Both the position numbers and the translations under genes were made by a program. DNA of 64,000 bases from Haematococcus lacustris (taxonomy: Eukaryota > Chlorophyta > Chlorophyceae > Chlamydomonadales > Haematococcaceae), in assembly GCA_030144725.1 (NCBI GenBank), contig JASKMD010000003.1, forward strand, positions 8,147,237-8,211,236. Direction: 5' to 3'. Under the pieces are notes generated by a model. That model had not been told where the DNA came from and searched no databases. It saw only the letters and a program-made list of their open reading frames with translations. Positions 41,423 through 54,621 of this stretch are shown one piece after another; the stretch's first letter is position 1; every line of letters starts with the position of its first letter.

Positions 41423-44400
41423 GGCAGGAGGGAGGAGGGCAGGAGGGAGGAGGGCAGGAGGGAGGAGGGCAGCAGGGAGGAGGGCAGCTGGGAGGAGGGC
41501 AGCAGGGAGGAGGGCAGCTGGGAGGAGGGCAGGAGGGAGGAGGGCAGGAGGGAGGAGGGCAGGAGGGAGGAGGGCAGCAGGGAGGAGGGCAGCTGGGAGG
41601 AGGGCAGCAGGGAGGAGGGCAGCTGGGAGGAGGGCAGCAGGGAGGAGGGCAGCTGGGAGGGGGGCAGGAGGGAGGAGGGCAGCAGGGAGGAGGGCAGCTG
41701 GGAGGAGGGCAGCAGGGAGGAGGGCAGCTGGGAGGAGGGCAGCAGGGAGGAGGGCAGCAGGGAGGAGGGCAGCAGGGAGGAGGGCAGCTGGGAGGAGGGC
41801 AGCAGGGAGGAGGGCAGCTGGGAGGAGGGCAGCAGGGAGGAGGGCAGCTGGGAGGAGGGCAGCAGGGAGGAGGGCAGGAGGGAGGAGGGCAGCAGGGAGG
41901 AGGGCAGCTGGGAGGAGGGCAGCAGGGAGGAGGGCAGCTGGGAGGAGGGCAGCAGGGAGGAGGGCAGCTGGGAGGGGGGCAGGAGGGAGGAGGGCAGCAG
42001 GGAGGAGGGCAGCTGGGAGGAGGGCAGCAGGGAGGAGGGCAGCTGGGAGGAGGGCAGCAGGGAGGAGGGCAGGAGGGAGGAGGGCAGCTGGGAGGAGGGC
42101 AGCAGGGAGGAGGGCAGCTGGGAGGAGGGCAGCAGGGAGGAGGGCAGCTGGGAGGAGGGCAGCAGGGAGGAGGGCAGGAGGGAGGAGGGCAGCAGGGAGG
42201 AGGGCAGCTGGGAGGAGGGCAGCAGGGAGGAGGGCAGCTGGGAGGAGGGCAGCAGGGAGGAGGGCAGCTGGGAGGAGGGCAGCAGGGAGGAGGGCAGCTG
42301 GGAGGAGGGCAGCAGGGAGGAGGGCAGCTGGGAGGAGGGCAGCTGGGAGGAGGGCAGCTGGGAGGAGGGCAGCAGGGAGGAGGGCAGGAGGGAGGGGGGC
42401 AGCTGGGAGGAGGGCAGCAGGGAGGAGGGCAGCTGGGAGGAGGGCAGCAGGGAGGAGGGCAGCTGGGAGAAGGGCAGCAGGGAGGAGGGCAGGAGGGAGG
42501 AGGGCAGCAGGGAGGAGGGCAGGAGGGAGGAGGGCAGCTGGGAGGAGGGCAGCAGGGAGGGGGGCAGCTGGGAGGAGGGCAGCTGGGAGGAGGGCAGCAG
42601 GGAGGAGGGCAGCTGGGAGGAGGGCAGCTGGGAGGAGGGCAGCTGGGAGGAGGGCAGCAGGGAGGAGGGCAGCTGGGAGGAGGGCAGCTGGGAGGAGGGC
42701 AGCTGGGAGGGGGGCAGCTGGGAGGGGGGCAGCTGGGAGGAGGGCAGCTGGGAGGGGGGCAGCTGGGAGGAGGGCAGCTGGGAGGAGGGCAGCTGGGAGG
42801 AGGGCAGCAGGGAGGAGGGCAGCTGGGAGGAGGGCAGCTGGGAGGAGGGCAGCTGGGAGGAGGGCAGCTGGGAGGAGGGCAGCAGGGAGGAGGGCAGCTG
42901 GGAGGAGGGCAGCAGGGAGGAGGGCAGCTGGGAGGAGGGCAGCTGGGAGGAGGGCAGCTGGGAGGAGGGCAGCAGGGAGGAGGGCAGCTGGGAGGAGGGC
43001 AGCTGGGAGGAGGGCAGCTGGGAGGAGGGCAGCAGGGAGGAGGGCAGCTGGGAGGAGGGCAGCTGGGAGGAGGGCAGCTGGGAGGGGGGCAGCTGGGAGG
43101 GGGGCAGCTGGGAGGAGGGCAGCTGGGAGGGGGGCAGCTGGGAGGAGGGCAGCTGGGAGGAGGGCAGCAGGGAGGAGGGCAGCTGGGAGGAGGGCAGCAG
43201 GGAGGAGGGCAGCTGGGAGGAGGGCAGCTGGGAGGAGGGCAGCTGGGAGGAGGGCAGCAGGGAGGAGGGCAGCTGGGAGGAGGGCAGCTGGGAGGAGGGC
43301 AGCTGGGAGGGGGGCAGCTGGGAGGAGGGCAGCTGGGAGGAGGGCAGCTGGGAGGAGGGCAGCTGGGAGGAGGGCAGCTGGGAGGGGGGCAGCTGGGAGG
43401 AGGGCAGCTGGGAGGAGGGCAGCTGGGAGGAGGGCAGCTGGGAGGAGGGCAGCTGGGAGGAGGGCAGCAGGGAGGAGGGCAGGAGGGAGGAGGGCAGCTG
43501 GGAGGAGGGCAGCAGGGAGGGGGGCAGCTGGGAGGAGGGCAGCTGGGAGGAGGGCAGCAGGGAGGAGGGCAGCTGGGAGGAGGGCAGCTGGGAGGAGGGC
43601 AGCTGGGAGGAGGGCAGCAGGGAGGAGGGCAGCTGGGAGGAGGGCAGCTGGGAGGAGGGCAGCTGGGAGGGGGGCAGCTGGGAGGGGGGCAGCTGGGAGG
43701 AGGGCAGCTGGGAGGGGGGCAGCTGGGAGGAGGGCAGCTGGGAGGAGGGCAGCTGGGAGGAGGGCAGCAGGGAGGAGGGCAGCTGGGAGGAGGGCAGCTG
43801 GGAGGAGGGCAGCTGGGAGGAGGGCAGCTGGGAGGAGGGCAGCAGGGAGGAGGGCAGCTGGGAGGAGGGCAGCAGGGAGGAGGGCAGCTGGGAGGAGGGC
43901 AGCTGGGAGGAGGGCAGCTGGGAGGAGGGCAGCAGGGAGGAGGGCAGCTGGGAGGAGGGCAGCTGGGAGGAGGGCAGCTGGGAGGGGGGCAGCTGGGAGG
44001 AGGGCAGCTGGGAGGAGGGCAGCTGGGAGGAGGGCAGCTGGGAGGAGGGCAGCTGGGAGGGGGGCAGCTGGGAGGAGGGCAGCTGGGAGGAGGGCAGCTG
44101 GGAGGAGGGCAGCTGGGAGGAGGGCAGCTGGGAGGAGGGCAGCAGGGAGGAGGGCAGGAGGGAGGAGGGCAGCTGGGAGGAGGGCAGCAGGGAGGGGGCA
44201 GCTGGGAGGAGGGCAGCTGGGAGGAGGGCAGCAGGGAGGAGGGCAGCTGGGAGGAGGGCAGCTGGGAGGAGGGCAGCTGGGAGGAGGGCAGCAGGGAGGA
44301 GGGCAGCTGGGAGGAGGGCAGCTGGGAGGAGGGCAGCTGGGAGGGGGCAGCTGGGAGGGGGGCAGCTGGGAGGAGGGCAGCTGGGAGGGGGGCAGCTGGG

Positions 44401-45199
44401 AGGAGGGCAGCTGGGAGGAGGGCAGCTGGGAGGAGGGCAGCTGGGAGGAGGGCAGCTGGGAGGAGGGCAGCAGGGAGGAGGGCAGCAGGGAGGAGGGCAG
44501 CAGGGAGGAGGGCAGCAGGGAGGAGGGCAGCAGGGAGGAGGGCAGCAGGGAGGAGGGCAGCAGGGAGGAGGGCAGCAGGGAGGAGGGCAGCAGGGAGGAG
44601 GGCAGCAGGGAGGAGGGCAGCAGGGAGGAGGGCAGCAGGGAGGAGGGCAGCAGGGAGGAGGGCAGCAGGGAGGAGGGCAGCAGGGAGGAGGGCAGCAGGG
44701 AGGAGGGCAGCAGGGAGGAGGGCAGCAGGGAGGAGGGCAGCAGGGAGGAGGGCAGCAGGGAGGAGGGCAGCAGGGAGGAGGGCAGCAGGGAGGAGGGCAG
44801 CAGGGAGGAGGGCAGCAGGGAGGAGGGCAGCAGGGAGGAGGGCAGCAGGGAGGAGGGCAGCAGGGAGGAGGGCAGCAGGGAGGAGGGCAGCAGGGAGGAG
44901 GGCAGCAGGGAGGAGGGCAGCAGGGAGGAGGGCAGCAGGGAGGAGGGCAGCAGGGAGGAGGGCAGCAGGGAGGAGGGCAGCAGGGAGGAGGGCAGCAGGG
45001 AGGAGGGCAGCAGGGAGGAGGGCAGCAGGGAGGAGGGCAGCAGGGAGGAGGGCAGCAGGGAGGAGGGCAGCAGGGAGGAGGGCAGCAGGGAGGAGGGCAG
45101 CAGGGAGGAGGGCAGCAGGGAGGAGGGCAGCAGGGAGGAGGGCAGCAGGGAGGAGGGCAGCAGGGAGGAGGGCAGCAGGGAGGAGGGCAGCAGGGAGGG
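41423..45199 (+). repeat. 15-bp minisatellite, about 3.78 kb (GGGAGGAGGGCAGCW)
   Basis: About 250 head-to-tail 15-mers with three main variants: GGCAGGAGGGAGGAG, GGCAGCAGGGAGGAG and GGCAGCTGGGAGGAG. A higher-order duplication is present: 42541-43020 and 43501-43980 are identical over 480 bp at 960-bp spacing. From 44461 to 45197 it is homogeneous GGCAGCAGGGAGGAG. The unit has no stop in several frames, which explains the 1,400-1,600-codon frames. It sits in an intron of the nucleoside hydrolase gene. The G-rich strand (GGGAGGAGGGCAGCAGGGAG) has G-quadruplex potential. Confidence 0.97.
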
Positions 45200-45209
45200 G
45201 GGAGCTCAC

Positions 45210-46182
45210 CTGCTCAGCATCCCCCAGACCATCTTTCCCAAACCAGTTGTTGGGCGGTGTGGGGGGAGCCAGGAGGGGCTCCTCTGCTCCCAGGTACACT
45301 GCGGGCAGCCTGCGGCACACTCATGGCCGCCCTGCATGCGGGTGTACTCGCAGCTGTGGTGGGTCACACTTGCTTGTATGTGCACAGCACTCATTGCCAA
45401 GAGGCGTGCCATGCTTTGAAAGTGGTGGTGACGGTGCTTGCGATGGGTGATGCAAATGATGGACGTTGTTTAGACATGTCCGCGCCATTGCTTTCATCCC
45501 TCCTTAGTCCCTGGCCTCTGTCTGACTCTCTAAGTCTTACTCTTAGTCCAGGGTCAACCCTCCATGTTCCAGGCTTCCCAGATGACTTCATCACTGGTAA
45601 ACCTTGCAAGATTACTGCAACCAGTGAATGCTGTGGATATGATTTGTGGGTGGCATTGACGTTGATGATGGTAGTGGTTCTAGAGTCAAGCTCATCAGCT
45701 GAGTTGAGCTCTTGAATTAAGGTGAGCTGTCAAGCTACACTTTACCAGTCTTGTTTAGATGGAACCGTACTGCATGGACACTCGCAGGCTTCAAGAGCTG
45801 TGTTGGGAGGGGCGTGTGGGGGGAGTGACCTGAGCTGTGAGACACATATATGCTTAAATTGAGTGCAGGGGTATGCCTTCAGAGTCATAACTTACTCCCC
45901 AGCAACGCACCTGGGATGTCAGTCCGTTCGCACAGCGTTAACACGCGGCACACATTGCGAGCCACTTGTGCGACTGCCTGCGGCCGCATGCCAGTGGCGG
46001 GTTGAGGACTGGTGCTTGCAGTCTTGTAACTTGCATTCGCATTAAACGCAGACCGTGTTGCCATGCACGCACGAGATGCCGAGCACATTGCATTCCGCAT
46101 CCGCCAGGGCCAGCAGCAAGCCTTGAGCATCGTCCACCCCCGCATCGCAGTCGATCCAAATGTCCCGTTTTCCTTTAGCCAT
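45210..46182 (-). CDS. Nucleoside hydrolase (IUNH family), 5' three exons
   Basis: Exon 1 (46182-46054) starts with ATG and encodes the IUNH signature IWIDCDAGVDDAQGLLLAL (D-x-D-x-G-x-D-D, the Ca-binding aspartates) and VLGISCVHGNT. Exon 2 (45977-45911; acceptor CGGCCGCAG, donor GTGCGT) gives QVARNVCRVLTLCERTDIP. Exon 3 (45298-45210; acceptor CTGCCCGCAG, donor GTGAGC) gives VYLGAEEPLLAPP and FGKDGLGD. The phases fit (129, 67 and 89 nt). These enzymes hydrolyse the N-glycosidic bond of purine or pyrimidine ribonucleosides in salvage. About 95 of roughly 320 residues are present. The rest must lie beyond the minisatellite, in the gap, or be lost. Confidence 0.85.
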
Positions 46183-46526
46183 GGAATGGCGTTTGCGATA
46201 CGCCTGGTGCAGAGTGGGCCTGATGCGATTGATACAATGCGAAAAACAACACCGCATCCGCCAAGAACAGGGGGAAGTGTGTGCTTCAATTGAAGTTGTG
46301 CCAGAGGGAGGCATGCAAGCAGAGGGAGGCATGCAAGCAGATGCGACGGGAGGCATGCAAGCAGTTTCCCGGGCGCGTGGTGCTGGTGCATGAGTTCCGG
46401 ACCAGCCGTGTCAGCTCTGCCCGCACCAACGTGGTGGCAGGTCAGGCTGAGTCCTTCAGGTGAGAGACCTCAGATGCACTCGCACTGTAGGAGTGGAGTC
46501 ATTACATAGCTGTCTAGACTGTGCCC

Positions 46527-46530
46527 TGCA
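46527..46530. repeat. Target-site duplication TGCA, left copy A
   Basis: TGCA directly before GGTCACCCCC, repeated at 50421-50424 directly after GGGGGTGACC. Confidence 0.7.
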
Positions 46531-49500
46531 GGTCACCCCCGCCATTGGCCCCGCAATTCACTTTTTGGCACCGTCTTTGATCTGCTACATGTAATTATTC
46601 CACCGTTTGGCTCTACATCTCACAACGGTGTCGCTAGCAGGTTAGGCCCTCTTTTGTCAATTGTACTTCATTGTCTCGACGACTTAATTAGCTTCGCAAT
46701 GTGATTCTCTATCTGTTTATATGCGTGTCGCAACAGGAGAGATGAATTGGTGGCCGGAGGCATGTCCGTGCCGAGCAGCCTTTGCTGCCGTCGGACTCGC
46801 AACTCGCGTATACTTCCCAGGCAAGCACGGGGTGCTGTTTCTTAACGCGTGTTGCATACGATGCTAACACATGCAACCAAATCTGCTAACCTCCACAGGT
46901 GCTTGGCTGTTGTGAGGATCAGCATCAAACCCACATCAGCCCAAGGCTCTTCCAAGCAGGAGTGCAGCAAGGTAATCAGCTCTTGAAAACAGTGAGGAAG
47001 AGGTGAGTAAGGTTGTACTATAACTCACCTTGTCTAGGTCAGTTTGATGTTCACTCGCACACTTCCGCAACGCATGACAGGCATGAACAGCTGAGGGTAG
47101 CACACAACTGTCATGAGCCTTAGTTTCATATTATTTCTACTTATTTCCAACCATTTATTGTGGTGTGTGCCCCAAGCGACCTTGTCTTTTTGATTGTGTG
47201 TGCAGGATGCCTGTAAATCACCCCCATCTCAAAAACCCATATGCAAGGGATGAGCAAGATGCAAGACGGTGTGCTGTTTGTGGACTCACGTCAGCAGCCA
47301 AGAATAGGGATGGGTATGTGAAGGTTGACCGAGTGGGGGAGGATGCGTGCCACAGCAGCTACCTGGTTGTCTTTGGCCACGCTAGCGTGCCAGTCAGCCA
47401 GTCAGCCTGCCAGGAGCACCCCAGCCACAGTTTGACAATGAGGCGGAGCTTGCTAGGGTAGCACAGTTCCAAGAGCACTTCCGTGAGCTGGATCAGGCAT
47501 TGACTGCCTTGCAGCTACTTCCAGGCCCACCTGCACAGCCTACCGGAACCCCTCTGAGGCTGTTCAACCGGTTTGCTGTGCTTGACCTTGAGTCTGGTGT
47601 GCCACAGGAGCAGGAGGCACTTGAAGTGCAAGTGCTGCCTTCGGCACGCAGCCAAAAGCGCCGCCGCTTGCTGCTAGCCACTCCTTCAGCCCACCCCACC
47701 CTACCCACCCTCCCCACCCCACCCTCCCTCCCCACCTTCCCCACCCTCCCTCCTTCCCCTCCCCACCCTCCCCACCCCTTCCACCCTCCCACCCTCCCCA
47801 CCCTCCCCACCCTCCCCACCCTCCCCACCCACCCTCCCCACCCCACCCTCCTTGCAGCCCACCCTTCCCTTCCTACAGCAGCCCTGCAGCCCTGCAGCCT
47901 TGGAGCAGTCTTGCAGGAGGTGCAGCCAATGTTGCTGCCTGTCACAGGCTCCCGAAAGCGACAGCGTACACAGCCCCCCTCCACAGCTACACCTGACCTC
48001 ACCCTCACAACAGACGCAACCACCAGCCCCGCAAGCACATCCCACTCGGTGGTGTTGCGTCACATGGGCAGTGTGGCCCGTGTCCTAAAGCGGCTGTCTT
48101 GGAGTGACAGGGCTGCCGTCATCAGCCTGCTTGAAGAGCAGGGCATCATTGAGCAACTAACAGACTCGCACATCTTAGGTGCCATGGTTCTAGCCCGCAT
48201 GAAGACCCAAAAGCCAACCTAGCGCGCTTGGTGCCCCCAGAGGTGAAGGAGCAGCGTCGTGTCACAGCGTTTGCTAAAGCCTCCGGTATGGACAGAGCGG
48301 CTGTTGCACAAGCAGCTAGCGAGAACGCTACAGCACTCACAACAGACCCCACCGGTCGCCTGTTGTACTTCACTGAGCGCTTGGACCAACGCGGCAACCC
48401 AGGGATCAGCCAGGCGCAGTTTGATGGGGTACGCCAGGCTTGGCATGACTACACTAAGCCATCTCCTTCCGTGAAGGACCTGTGCCAGTTCTCTGAGCGC
48501 ATGGCGGCCGGGTGCGTTGCTCAGCTTGGCATGCATGGGGTAGGCAGATAGGGTAGTGGGGTAGCAATGGGCATGCATGCATGGGGTAGGCAAATTGGTA
48601 GTGGGGTAGGCATGGGGTAGGCAGAGGGGTAGTAGGGTAGGCATGGGGCATGGGGACAGTTGCTCAGCATGTGACGACTTGTCATGCATATCATGCTTGC
48701 GCAGAAGCCAGAAGAGGACTCTTGTCACGGAGACAAAGCGATACTATGACAGCTCAGAGGAGGAGATATGGCGGCAGTATTTCGAGAACTTTCCTCCTTG
48801 TCGTGAAGCACGGGGGCCAGTGGCGCTGAGTCTGTTTGGGGAACTGAAGCCTCGATGGGTCAAGAAGCTCACTGAGGCTCAGAGGCAAGTGTGCGTGTGC
48901 CGGACTTGCTGCAACATCAATTTCCTCCTCAAAGCCCTGGCCAAACACAAGAGCCTCTTGCAACTGCCTAGCCTTGTGGACCCCCCAGAGCCCCACCCCC
49001 AGCCCCACCCCCACCCCCAGCCCCAGCACCAGCACCAGCCATTGATTGATGACGGTGATGAGGACATTCACTCACCATTCTCAGATCCTAATCACGAGTT
49101 TGAGCACGGGGCAGCTGCATTCAGCCACCAGACCACCACCTCCCAGATCCCCACTCTCAGTGCCAGTGTTGTACGTGCCATGTGCATGTGCCCATGTGAC
49201 GCTGGTGTGCATCACATAGAGTGCATGCGTCGGTCTTGCTCAATGTGCAGAAGCAAGCAGTTGCATCTAAAGCCGGGTGTGGATGGGTCCACCATGTCAC
49301 GGATGGTTGTGCTGGGCAATTCAAAGGTACCCCAGCATTGCAACAGCACCGTCGCATGGCACTGAACTTGTCTGTGCCAACGTGGTGGTCGTATGGTGCC
49401 ACCTCCCACTTCAAGGGCAGGCATGACTCAGAGGGTGGAGTCTTGAAGCATAAGCTCAGGGATATGGTCCTGGCAGATCATGATGGCTTGGCCACGTGCA

Positions 49501-50420
49501 AGGCTCAACTGCTTTCAATAGTAAGCACACAGAGCCTGCATCTCAAGTTGGTGCGTGCAAGGCCCACCGGGACAGGGCAAAAGTGATGTGGAGGGAGTGC
49601 TTGGTGTTGGATGAGGGGGTGGGGAAGGAGTGCTACAAGCAAGATGAGGATGCTGACAGCTTCAAATGTACAGTACAAGGGTCTCGTGCACAACACAGCA
49701 TGTATTTTCCTGTCGACACTCATGGTGAGCTCATGTGGTCGATGACGGCATGTGCTTGTGGTGCACGCATGAGCAACCCCCCTCAGCCGTGTGGTGCACA
49801 ATGCCGTGGTTCGATGCCTCTTGAGCCAATGCCCATGCTGCTAGACAAGGAAGCTGCTAGGCAAGCTGCTTTGAACGCAGAGTGTATTAGGCTCATGCGC
49901 TTGGACAACCCTGGTATGCCTCAGTTTGATACACTGAACAAGGACCTATTGAAAGCATGGTGCAAGCATAACAACATCAGAGGGGTTTCAAGTAAATCAA
50001 AGAGAGAAGGTTGAGGCACCACGGCACATGTAACAATGAGAGCCAGAGCCAGCCCGAGCCATCCCGACAACATAGTGCCAAGTGATGATGTAGCGCTGTC
50101 AAGATGCAGCTTGTATTTGCATCGAGTCATGCCGCGACGTAAATGAGGTAAGGGATGCCAGCTGGCTGACTTGTGCGCCGTTGGCACTTGTGCCGTTGGC
50201 TTACGGCGTGCGTAGAAGGATGGCCAGCCTCGCCTTATGATGTGCGTGAGTCTTTTAGGAGCGGAAGGCACAGGTCAGGTTTGGGCGGGCGCCGATCTGA
50301 GCTAGTGTTTTGCGGCTGGTGGGTGTCGCATACGCCTGTTACACCCGGCTGCGTCAAAACTTTGTCACGAGCTACACGGAGATTCGCGCCCCAGACCCTC
50401 TCACATTGGCGGGGGTGACC
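46531..50420 (+). mobile_element. DNA transposon copy A (3,890 bp), GGTCACCCC family
   Basis: The left end GGTCACCCCCGCCATTG (46531) matches the reverse complement of the right end, GGTCACCCCCGCCAATG (ending at 50420). TGCA flanks both sides (46527-46530 and 50421-50424) as a 4-bp target duplication. The element sits in the intron of the Fanzor remnant: removing it and one TGCA leaves an intron of about 160 bp with GTGAGA and TTGCAG borders. Inside is a frameshifted, internally deleted relative of the protein encoded by copy B. It is probably non-autonomous. Confidence 0.8.
47205..50014 (+). pseudogene. Broken DDE-like transposase of copy A
   Basis: Pieces in order: an N-terminal Cys motif (NPYARDEQDARRCAVCG); a helical region interrupted by a CCCACCCTC-rich insertion (47695-47860); an exon after acceptor TGCTTGCGCAG (48707) with VCVCRTCCNINFLLKALAKH; then DGCAGQFKGTPALQQHRRMA and SHFKGRHDSEGG; and a C-terminal part with WSMTACACGARMS. 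The frame breaks near 47440 and near 48210 (a 1-nt shift), and is lost again near 49260. There the segment with the first catalytic Asp present in copy B (CDWSEKL) is missing. Inactive by inspection. It would have been a nuclear, TIR-binding recombinase. Confidence 0.65.
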
Positions 50421-50863
50421 TGCACTGTTCAGGCTGTACATGGCTTGACTTAACACTTGGTTTGGTGAGGAAGGGTCTTACAAGTGAGCATTGACATATG
50501 TTGCCTTGCAGGTGGCTGTACCCGGTGCGCAGCATGGCGACGCGGTCCCGGATCCGGGGCTTGATGTGCTCTACAAGCAATGTCATCAAGCGCAAGTTCT
50601 ACGACCGAGACGTGTCAGCCGCGCTGACCATCGCCCGCATTGCAGCCGGGCCGGGCCGCCCACGCGAGCTCAGCAGCTGGCTGGGCCGCCCCGCCATGCC
50701 CAGGCAGAGTGGGCCAGGAGTGGGTGCAAGTGCGCGACAGAGGCCTGCTGCGGAAGTTGCAGCGGCGGCACCAGCGGCAGCGACAGTGACATGTGTATCA
50801 TGCCATGAGCCAAACAAACAAACAATACGATTGCCCCTTACAAAGGGGGTGTGTGTGCGCTAG

Positions 50864-50912
50864 AGTGTGCATAGGGTAGGGCTCTAGCGAATAGGTTAGG
50901 GACACGTAGGGT
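50864..50912. other. Spacer between Fanzor remnant and copy B
   Basis: Contains GGTTAGGGACACG, and TTAGGGACAC recurs just outside the right end of copy B (54356). This may be an older flanking repeat. Confidence 0.4.
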
Positions 50913-51439
50913 AGGTGGTCACCCCTCCCATTGAACCACCAACCCGCCTAACGATAAGGGACAACGGCTTTTCCGGACTCATTTCTGCACACTGAGCCAC
51001 ACGCTGAGCTGGTCGGGCATGTTGCCGGGTATCCGACCCTACCGAGCCTGCGGACTTGATGTACGTTGACCCAGTAGCAGTGAGTCCCTGTTAAACGCGA
51101 TGGATAGTGCGCGATGTGCGAGGGGCCCGACCTCATGTCCAACATGATAACCAACATGCGCTGGCTCAGGGGCTCTGAAACTTGGAGGAGACCACAGTAG
51201 GAGCACAGCAGTGGCAACTGCATCAATCCCTTGTTGATTAGGCTCCATAAGGTGGGCAAACACTCCTCCATGCTGCCCAATCTGCTGATGCCAGTATGAC
51301 GACCATCAAACTCAATCGAACTCTCCAGCCCTGCGTCACTGGCTAGGGAACTTAGCTGTGGACCCCCTGCCAAGTTCTCATCTCTTGCTGAGATTTGCCC
51401 ATATGTGTTTAAGAAGCTGGCGTGTGCACATGCTTGCAG

Positions 51440-52848
51440 GATGCTCGCATCCAAGTACCACCCCTACAAACGGCAGGGGGGCCAGGCTGCCCGATGTGTG
51501 TGTTGTGTGAGGTCTACGCCAGCTGGCAGCACTGGCTGGGTGGAGATCCATGTGGAGGGGGAGACAGCCTCGTACCGCTCCGGACAGAGTCGGCCAGGTC
51601 ACAGCCCAGATGGATGATGTCATCACAGCCTGCAGATGCCTGAAGCCTTCACAGGTTCCACTGGCCCATAGAAGTTGTGCCGAGGCTGCTGCAGCTGCGC
51701 ATGCTGTGTGCCAGCGGCTGCGGGGGCAGGAGCCAGCCAGCCAGCTCCAGCCCATGCCCAGTCTTTGCTCCACACCCTCGCAAGCAGTTGCACAGCCTGG
51801 GCCAGCCCATGCGCCCTGCCCCCACCATCTCCCAGACCACCACCCATCACAGTCTCAGCTGCAGGGACTGCTGCACCTACCAGGGCTCTCCATCCTCACC
51901 AGGCCTGCCACCAACCCCGTGACCTCACCTGCCGAGGAGCAGCTGCCCATCATGTGAGTGCCCCTGCTGGATGATGGGCTGACGTGGCAAGCCAGCTGCA
52001 CAACATCAGTTGCACACTCAGGTTGCAGCCTGTTTTTGGCCATTTCACCTAGCACCCTGGTGGCAACACCACTCGTCACACTCCTGTGTGTGGTGTCATG
52101 CAGACACACCACTGAGGAGCAGGACGAGCAGACCATGCCCCCAAGCATGCCCAAGCAACAGCAGGACTGGGCCACCGCAAGGTGCGCTTTTCACTCCTCA
52201 GCCATGACCTGCAGCAGCCCTACCTTGCACCAGCCTTGCCCAGGCTATGGCCATAGCCTGACCTTCCCTTGGCCCTAGCCTGCCTTGCCCTTCTTGCTCC
52301 TTTGGTCCTTTGGCTGCAGGGCAATTGCTGCCGAGGTTCTCCAGCAGATACAGCAAGTACCCGTTGCAACCTGGACAACTTTTGCAACCTGTTGCAACCT
52401 GGACAACTTGCTCACTGCACTAGCCCAACACAAAAAGAGCTTGCAGCTGCCCCCCGCTGCAGCCATTGCTGCCCCCCTAGCTGCCCCCCTGGCTGCAGCA
52501 GGCGCTGCCCCTCAGCCGCCCCCCTACCAGGGGGTTGATGTCCCCCCTGTTGCTGAGGAGGAAGACGAATCCCTCACCGTGGCTGCCACTCCCTTCATCG
52601 ACCCACTTGGTGAAGTCGAGCAGCAGGAACATAGGTGGCAAGCAGAGCAAGAGCGTCAGCCTTGGCAGGCCGCCCCACCCTTCCCCCCTTCCCCCCTTCC
52701 CCCACCCCTCTCCCCTCCCCTCTACACTCCTGGCCTTCCGCCTGTCCCGCTGCATTCACCACCTCCCCTCCCCCCCCACTCCCCCATCCTAATCCCACCA
52801 CCTCCCAGCAAAACCACCTCCCAGCACCTCCCACCACCTCCCGGTTGA
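51440..52848 (+). CDS. N-terminal exons of the copy B transposase-like gene
   Basis: After acceptor TGCTTGCAG the first exon reads HPYKRQGGQAARCVCC, the counterpart of NPYARDEQDARRCAVCG in copy A. Later exons appear near 52105-52181 (donor GTGCGC) and from 52320 (acceptor TTGGCTGCAG), with CCNLDNLLTALAQHKKSLQL, matching CCNINFLLKALAKH of copy A. The Pro-rich end of this exon runs into a TGA at 52846. The catalytic part continues in another frame from about 52820, so there is an unrecognised intron or a 1-nt shift here. Confidence 0.55.
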
Positions 52849-52858
52849 GCTGCTGTGC

Positions 52859-53920
52859 ATGAGGGTGAGCTTGAGTGATGCTGTCGGCATGCTGAACAAG
52901 CAGATGCCAGAGTACATCAAGCACCACCGGTTGGCACATCATCAGCTGCAGGTTTTCCGTGAGCACCGTGAGGCCGTCAAGGCAGGCCAGGATGGGAAGG
53001 TTGTGATTTCATGTGATTGGTCAGAGAAGCTGACTGTTGAGCGTAGCGTTGAGATCATGTCAGAGCATTGGCATGCGCAGCAGATAGGCATTCTCGTGGC
53101 GTGTGCATACTTCAAGAAGAAAGAGGGGGCCTACTATGAGCACACCGTGTATGTGATGACAGATGGGAAGGAGCAGTCGGCAGCCATTACCCAAGCAGCA
53201 GTAAACCAGGTGGTGTGTTACGTGCGGGCAGAGCATGACATGGACATGCGGCAGTTGTACATGTGGTCTGATGGGTGTGCAGGGCAGTTCAAGGGCGCCC
53301 CAGCCATGCGACAACATTGGGGCATGGCACAGAGGTTCAGCATGCCGGTGTGGTGGAGCTATGGGGCTACAGCTCACTTCAAGGGCAGGCATGATTCCGA
53401 GGGAGGGGTGATGAAGCAGTGGCTGAGGGGTGAGATCCTGGCAGATCGTTTTGGGAAGTGCAATGCATTGGGGTTTGTGCAGCATTGCAATGCATATCAC
53501 AAGCCAGCTGCTGCTGCTGACCCCAGCAAGGCTCACCGTGCACGAGCAAGTGTGGGTCATCGGTGGTGCTTGGAGCTGAGCACGCAGGAGGTAGAGCTTT
53601 GCAGTGCTCCACAACGGGATGCACATGCCTTTGCATCATCCATCCCCGGCTCTATGAGCATGCACAGCTGCTTCTTCCCTGCTGCAGGGATCCAGGTCGA
53701 GTGGTCACAGACTGCATGTGCATGTGCCCAATGCATGACCCCCGCACCAAGGTGTGTGTGCATGAGGCCCTCCATCACAAAGCCCTTTGTGGCCATGCCC
53801 ATGTTCGATCAGAAGAGGGATGACAAGCACTGGGACGATGACTGCATCACCCTTCTGTGCTCATTTGCACCCAGACAGCGTGAAGCAGCTGTGCACCTTG
53901 GGCAAGAAGCTGAGCGTTGA
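52859..53920 (+). CDS. Copy B transposase core with SDGCAGQFKG motif
   Basis: An uninterrupted frame of 353 codons. Candidate catalytic acids are Asp in VVISCDWSEKL, Asp in YMWSDGCAGQFKG and Asp/Glu in HFKGRHDSEGGVMK, an arrangement like RNase H-fold (DDE/DDD) transposases. SEHWHAQQIG and WWSYGATAHFKG are further conserved blocks shared with copy A. A Cys-rich motif (ACACAQCM) follows. Near 53860 the frame shifts relative to a sensible C-terminus (PDSVKQLCTLGKKLSVEDV in the next frame, to 54038). The family resembles uncharacterised SDG..xQFK proteins with a GK..DG.GG motif. I cannot name the superfamily. Confidence 0.7.
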   Translation: MRVSLSDAVGMLNKQMPEYIKHHRLAHHQLQVFREHREAVKAGQDGKVVISCDWSEKLTVERSVEIMSEHWHAQQIGILVACAYFKKKEGAYYEHTVYVMTDGKEQSAAITQAAVNQVVCYVRAEHDMDMRQLYMWSDGCAGQFKGAPAMRQHWGMAQRFSMPVWWSYGATAHFKGRHDSEGGVMKQWLRGEILADRFGKCNALGFVQHCNAYHKPAAAADPSKAHRARASVGHRWCLELSTQEVELCSAPQRDAHAFASSIPGSMSMHSCFFPAAGIQVEWSQTACACAQCMTPAPRCVCMRPSITKPFVAMPMFDQKRDDKHWDDDCITLLCSFAPRQREAAVHLGQEAER

Positions 53921-54621
53921 AGATGTTGCAAGGCAGTGGGATTGTATGTGCCAGCCAACACCTTGCGTGCTGACCTACGGTACATGGTACTGGAGCATCT
54001 CAATGGGCAGGCAGAGTGGGATTGAGCTGGCTGTGTAAGATGACGTTGAGAAAACTGGGCTCCATGCGTAAAGTGTACCGCAGTGTACCGCAGCGGAGAA
54101 CTCTGCATCCCGCGTTGTGGGTGTTGTTAGGCAGCACTTGAAAGGCCCATCGCGCACAGCGGAACCGTTCGCGTGCCTGGCAGACTGCCGGTCACCGTGG
54201 GTGCCAGATGCTCGGGCGCGCAGGCGCAAGCGCGGCGCAGAGATAAGGCATTTCGCGTTAAAATGACAACTCAACTCTCACCAGGCATGCCGCAAAGTCA
54301 AATGTCCCTTACGTGGTGGTTCAGTGGGAGGGGTGACCAGGTCCCGACTCCTAGCTTAGGGACACACCGGTCTCAGGGATACAGCATTGTTGATATATCC
54401 ATTCAGATATATCTACTGTCATACAGGTAGGTGCATGGCAGAGCTGAAGTTGTTCACCATTTGGGGGATGTTTGTATGTCACCGCTTAGTGAGCAAGCAT
54501 AGACGCCATACGTGAAGCAGTGCAACCACATATCCGCCGGCCAGTCGCAACATTGGTAATAATGCCGGTGGAGAAGTAGTTATGTTTCTAACAATCCACG
54601 ACATAAGGCATGTGGCTTAGA

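Follow-up and report, generated by a model that had tools for sequence, protein, structure and literature searches.

The Sola superfamily of DNA transposons (Sola1, Sola2 and Sola3) was reportedly established by Bao et al. in 2009 and is said to have been described largely from Hydra. Its members have DDD transposases (with three catalytic aspartates), target-site duplications (TSDs) of 4 bp, terminal inverted repeats (TIRs) of 11-1124 bp, and sizes mostly of 2-9 kb (PMC10741241). The Fanzor-bearing Sola2 elements have the AT-rich TSDs AWWT, ATAT, AAAT, and ATTT (PMC3627910), and profiles for 17 superfamilies, Sola1-3 included, have been used in PMC10294476. The subject of this study is a window of 64,000 nucleotides from the green alga Haematococcus lacustris (contig JASKMD010000003.1, positions 8,147,237 to 8,211,236), and in it two elements, copies A and B. 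These are very probably relics of a high-copy H. lacustris DNA transposon family in or next to Sola, which most likely moves by cut-and-paste through its ends, a 4-bp stagger, and a predicted DDD transposase, with derivatives mobilised in trans.

Ends and target-site duplications

The exact word GGTCACCCC is found at four places in the window, 46531 (+), 50412 (-), 50917 (+), and 54330 (-). The chance expectation is 1.19 and four were reached by 4 of 100 shuffles, so the count taken alone is weak evidence; what matters is the layout as two inward-facing pairs together with the duplications. The original prediction had two elements bounded by such inverted ends and flanked by duplicated 4-mers, and both statements agree with the sequence: the word stands at all four ends, and identical 4-mers adjoin each copy. 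The termini of copy A match at 16 of 17 positions by eye, while the arms of copy B, 26 nt long, are complementary at 96%. Copy A by itself is weak evidence for a duplication because TGCA is palindromic; AGGT of copy B is not.

Ends of this kind are abundant in the 307.9-Mb assembly (597 contigs). The 17-base end GGTCACCCCYSCCAYTG has 3,778 occurrences, 1,884 forward and 1,894 reverse, while its reversed control pattern has none in the same genome, and the open frame of copy B finds at least 111 places (109 of 1,418 candidates scored). The genome search for further end pairs proposed in the original prediction thus gave thousands of ends, with exact 4-bp duplications in 42 of 44 end pairs examined in three sets. 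The first set comprised the window and loci L002-L030, with L001 left out because it is the same as copy B, with five loci lengthened upstream by L031-L035, and with up to two substitutions tolerated in the end. All 12 elements with both ends in reach have identical flanking 4-mers; three extra pairings join ends of different elements, nested or neighbouring, and have differing 4-mers, and the other loci have one end, none, or two in the wrong order. The second and third sets came from 100 of the 3,778 end places, all from two contigs. Thirty ends of the second set gave 8 plus/minus pairs shorter than 7 kb (7 matching), and the third set, all 24 such pairs among the other 70 listed places, matched in 23 at 4 bp and in none at 5 bp. 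Loci L074 and L076 have common flanks, which leaves 22 distinct matching sites in the third set. Among non-partner ends, used as a control, the 4-mers agree in 5 of 215 (second set) and 12 of 552 (third set).

The duplications recorded include AGCT, TGCA, CACT, TGCT, and others, and those of A and T only (AAAT, TTTT, ATAA) are a minority. In 69 distinct ends, some of which belong to one and the same element, the six bases preceding the element are preferentially G, C, A/T, G, C, and T/A, and WGCW makes up 25 of the 69 duplications. At 23 complete sites, mostly of A-ended short elements from the third set, the base before the duplication is C with a frequency of 0.57 and the outer positions of the duplication are A or T with a frequency of 0.85; WNNW is seen in 16 of the 23, WGCW in just 4. 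The symmetry of this second profile arises by construction, since both strands were pooled.

The predicted transposase

The protein of the fullest members has an N-terminal Cx2C segment, more cysteine clusters, a predicted RNase H-fold DDD domain, and a C-terminal Cys segment followed by a weakly SAP-like tail. The conserved predicted catalytic residues, numbered in the A-type protein P0028, are D304, D389, and D430, with a second-to-third spacing of 40 residues. The third is Asp in 53 of the 55 aligned rows with letters there, and because a nearby Glu is replaced by I, L, or V in all 30 rows of the animal type (named after Hydra protein P0112, see below), the triad is read as DDD. Structure prediction gave an integrase/transposase-like fold, and this fold, when realigned, ranks closest to retroviral integrases. 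The cysteine-rich DDD/E transposase proposed earlier is therefore upheld in its Cys clusters and predicted RNase H-type fold, but is narrowed to DDD, and copy A is without the first Asp. The blocks CCN[IL], DGCAGQFKG, and HFKGRHDSEGG, said to be shared, are present in the proteins of both copies.

The best protein match is the H. lacustris hypothetical protein P0002 (90% identity, 97% query coverage), and the Haematococcus proteins among the matches listed are all annotated as hypothetical protein. At E<=0.1, 56 relatives matched 24 Pfam families, and no catalytic model for a transposase or an integrase is among these. The KDZ domain, presumably PF18758, is likewise not among the 24 families, which come from single-sequence scans only. 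KDZ transposons (Zisupton/Kyakuja) have been reported in Chlamydomonas relatives (PMC8226300).

Condition of copies A and B

Neither copy looks autonomous (Table 1). The deletion in copy A takes away the first catalytic Asp along with strands 1-3 of the RNase H fold as predicted, and the remaining coding pieces are spread over several frames; the last of them carry DGCAGQFKG, HFKGRHDSEGG, the C-terminal Cys segment, and a weak Ish1/SAP-like tail. Copy B has all three predicted catalytic Asp in a single open frame. This frame ends in a stop at 53920 while the similarity to protein P0080 runs on to 54022; residues 242-371 of P0080 have no tblastn match in copy B, where by eye a proline-rich stretch is kept but not the CPCE...CxxC cluster that follows it. 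The catalytic frame of copy B is 47% identical to P0028, and the DNA of the two copies aligns over only 178 bp (74%). The two were taken at first for sisters defining one family: they are indeed related TIR transposons, but they belong to two subfamilies and are not copies of one family, and both are defective.

Table 1. Features of copies A and B, with positions in the window
Feature	Position	Strand	Remarks
TGCA target duplication, 5' side of copy A	46527..46530	.	
Copy A, 3890 bp	46531..50420	+	A-type subfamily (P0028/P0027 group), defective; TIRs, TSD, coding pieces
Copy A 5' TIR	46531..46547	+	GGTCACCCCCGCCATTG
Copy A N-terminal exon (MPVNHPHLKNPY...RRCAVC)	47207..47350	+	P0004 N-terminus-like; by eye, approximate limits
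Copy A coding piece, P0028 residues 29-229	48706..49296	+	CVCRTCCN and Cys cluster; tblastn, 94.5% identity
Copy A deletion junction	49297..49298	+	P0028 residues 230-387 gone
Copy A coding pieces, P0028 residues 388-627 and 637-646	49299..50030	+	Two frames
Copy A 3' TIR	50404..50420	-	1 mismatch in 17
TGCA target duplication, 3' side of copy A	50421..50424	.	
AGGT target duplication, 5' side of copy B	50913..50916	.	
Copy B, 3422 bp	50917..54338	+	B-type subfamily (P0080 group), defective
Copy B 5' TIR	50917..50941	+	Arms 96% complementary
Copy B coding piece, P0080 residues 146-241	52387..52674	+	tblastn, 86% identity
Copy B open frame with DDD catalytic core	52793..53917	+	P0080 match from 52844
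Copy B first predicted catalytic Asp	53015..53017	+	CDWSE
Copy B second predicted catalytic Asp	53270..53272	+	WSDGCAGQFKG
Copy B third predicted catalytic Asp	53393..53395	+	HFKGRHDSEGG
Copy B 3' TIR	54314..54338	-	
AGGT target duplication, 3' side of copy B	54339..54342	.	

Other copies in the genome

Coding copies with both ends are 2.3-5.8 kb long and non-autonomous ones are shorter. In locus L006, which is 5,770 bp long, an open frame of 745 codons spans P0080 residues 48-767; upstream of it, in other frames, are blocks that match the P0082 and P0004 N-termini, as exons would. L005, L006, and L018 are 99.8-99.9% identical across 2.0-2.5 kb up to the 3' end of the element while their flanks differ, which suggests recent movement of family members. 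L002 contains a B-type element nested inside an A-ended element, each with its own duplication. L010 and L011 are the same across 4,068 bp including the flanks, and are either a duplicated site or a single site represented twice. Among the derivatives, L051 is B-type (751 bp), while L036, L053, and L064 (0.94-0.98 kb) are 82-86% alike and have only the terminal 19 bp in common with copy A. These three have A-type ends, are non-autonomous, and are seen repeatedly among the end places listed.

Eight B-type copies (L008, L009, L013, L014, L015, L016, L021, and L029) have the ends GGCTACCCC and not GGTCACCCC, so ends vary within the B-type subfamily. Where both ends of such copies are in reach, the TSD is TGCA (L009) or AGGG (L015).

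Relatives in algae and animals

An algal profile, A1, built from 7 sequences, retrieved 77 proteins, nearly all from Haematococcus. The others are six ENA proteins, one protein labelled Tisochrysis, one labelled Bosea, and P0112 from Hydra vulgaris (LOC136081787). The Bosea protein (P0098, 131 aa) is filed under an alphaproteobacterium; it shares 94% identity with the algal transposase and is probably algal contamination of that assembly. A search with P0112 gave 1,304 matching proteins; in the best 120 of these, nine have an organism name, all animals (Hydra, Penaeus, Bemisia, Araneus, Brienomyrus), and none has a precomputed Pfam domain. Profile A1 aligned by hhalign to 30 P0112-type proteins with a probability of 99.4 and an E value of 5e-21 over 294 columns. 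The identity is about 20%, with the same three Asp in register (DFAENY/CDWSE, SDGCAGQ[YF]K, and H[GF]KxxxD..GG..K); LRPxW...VCVCxxxxN and CMxxxCxxC upstream are also common and collinear by eye. The animal-type proteins differ in HTH_23, matched by 5 of 56 rows, and in a weak C-terminal match of chromo-like type, whereas the algal proteins have the weak SAP-like tail.

A midpoint-rooted tree was built from 54 core sequences, two of the 56 being too short. In it the 24 algal-type rows, including six ENA rows without a known host, form one group with support 1.0, apart from the animal set, and Haematococcus has four subfamilies. A distinct family had been proposed; a TIR family with 4-bp duplications it is, but not an isolated one, and these comparisons place it as one deep algal-type lineage within a group common to animals, the animal side of which was compared through its proteins.

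Mechanism and alternative explanations

The transposon class of copies A and B is secure. Transposase subunits would bind and pair two GGTCACCCC-type ends and cut at the terminal GG, and both 3' ends would then be joined to the two strands of the target at positions staggered by 4 bp, with a preference for A or T at the outer bases of the stagger. Repair of the stagger would produce the 4-bp duplication. We infer cut-and-paste rather than copy-out movement, with the predicted DDD domain as the probable catalyst, and fuller copies would move defective derivatives in trans, including copies A and B and the 0.75-1 kb elements.

Several observations weigh against parts of this account. No excision footprint was seen, so that movement could also be by copy-out, and the collected loci include no sequence spanning the empty site of the nested L002 insertion. 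One pair in the second set (AGGA/AGTA) and one in the third (CGCT/TCCT) do not match, the total of 42 of 44 counts the duplicated site L074/L076 twice, and two of the five copies extended upstream (L005 and L024) still lack a 5' end after about 3 kb. The counts of ends mix autonomous and non-autonomous copies. The ranking near integrases derives from a realignment of Foldseek's own list; Foldseek against the PDB gave no match at E<=0.001, and its top rows are Argonaute, SPARTA, and EndoV chains. The alternative that the elements are a dispersed host gene family, with duplication breakpoints as the repeated ends, has no direct support; at least one site, L074/L076 with its common flanks, is segmentally duplicated. 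The exact duplications in 42 of 44 pairs, the near-identical copies with unrelated flanks, the nested insertion with two correct TSDs, and the integrase-like predicted fold leave it all but refuted and extremely improbable, unless the assembly were systematically in error.

For the transposon family itself, the best placement is in or adjoining Sola, compared by description only. That it belongs to Sola proper, as a new algal lineage of Sola1, Sola2, or Sola3 with only lineage and host being new, is on balance probable. All four features given in PMC10741241 agree (DDD, 4-bp TSD, TIRs of about 17-26 bp, coding copies of 2.3-5.8 kb). Hydra vulgaris, of the genus from which Sola is said to have been largely described, also bears the first-found animal relative, P0112. 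The likeness is one of descriptions, however, the AT-rich TSDs of Fanzor-bearing Sola2 families have counterparts in a minority of the duplications here, and the name Sola is absent from all relatives listed (75, 77, and the best 120 of 1,304). A more doubtful possibility is that the algal family and the animal CDFAENY/HGKxPCDGxGG proteins together are one widespread eukaryotic DDD superfamily as yet without a name, with 4-bp duplications, a symmetric C|W..W|G target preference, and an N-terminal half rich in cysteine. Such a superfamily would have escaped notice for lack of a domain model. The Pfam results for the 56 relatives and for the best 120 matches of P0112 would fit this, and the literature searched by full text (figures not covered) contained neither the algal and animal motif strings nor any account of the lineage. 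Such absence from Pfam and the literature is weak evidence, Repbase proteins lie outside the comparison, and the features coincide with those of Sola.

Membership in another DDD/E superfamily with duplications of about 4 bp (Ginger1/2, Kolobok, piggyBac, Academ, or Chapaev/EnSpm) is improbable, as judged from the features of Ginger, Kolobok, and piggyBac and from the Pfam scans. Ginger is related to retroviral integrases, to which the realigned fold is nearest, and the TSD length suits Ginger and some Kolobok elements. KolobokP has TSDs of 3-5 bp and Kolobok termini are RR..YY (PMC9587614, PMC10045372), with which the GG..CC ends agree. However, the duplication of Kolobok and piggyBac is typically TTAA, KolobokP being the exception inside Kolobok, and TTAA is in none of the recorded duplications. 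The C/DxxH described between the second D and the last acidic residue in the hAT/P/MuDR/Kolobok/Dada group (PMC9587614) has no counterpart by eye, as no DxxH or CxxH stands between the second and third Asp of the alignment, and the Pfam scans of the 56 relatives gave no catalytic match. IS3EU and GingerRoot, with TA..TA ends (GingerRoot occasionally TG..CA) and 6-bp TSDs (PMC10045372), were rejected on the GG..CC ends and 4-bp TSDs.

Surroundings and significance

Copy A lies inside an apparent GT...AG intron (window 46460-50511). By eye, the joined exons around it (VHEFRTS... / ...RGLMCSTSN...RDVSAALTIARI) seem similar to the C-terminal part of Fanzor/TnpB, with no Pfam support. At about 42000-45400 in the window, after a run of N, is a very long GC-rich tandem array that is strongly purine-skewed (EEGSREEGSW-type translation).

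The alga is grown commercially; in its 308-Mb genome the family has thousands of ends, and it looks recently active. A transposition assay is feasible, given near-complete copies whose ends and target preference are known, and a profile of the family would aid the clean-up of algal and animal gene sets. That the family matches a large protein group for which Pfam has no catalytic model suggests that domain libraries, and perhaps the classification of transposons too, are incomplete.

Comparison with known systems

Retroviral integrases, IS21 IstA, and mariner Mos1 differ from this family, whose triad is DDD with the third Asp separated from the second by 40 residues, and which has no detectable sequence similarity to PDB chains. 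Ginger1 and Ginger2 are alike in TSDs of about 4 bp and an integrase-like fold, but their TIRs are 40-270 bp long and their ends are TG..CA (PMC10741241), compared with about 17-26 bp and GG..CC here. The Fanzor-bearing Sola2 elements have AT-rich TSDs (PMC3627910), unlike the duplications in H. lacustris, which have A or T outside and often GC inside.

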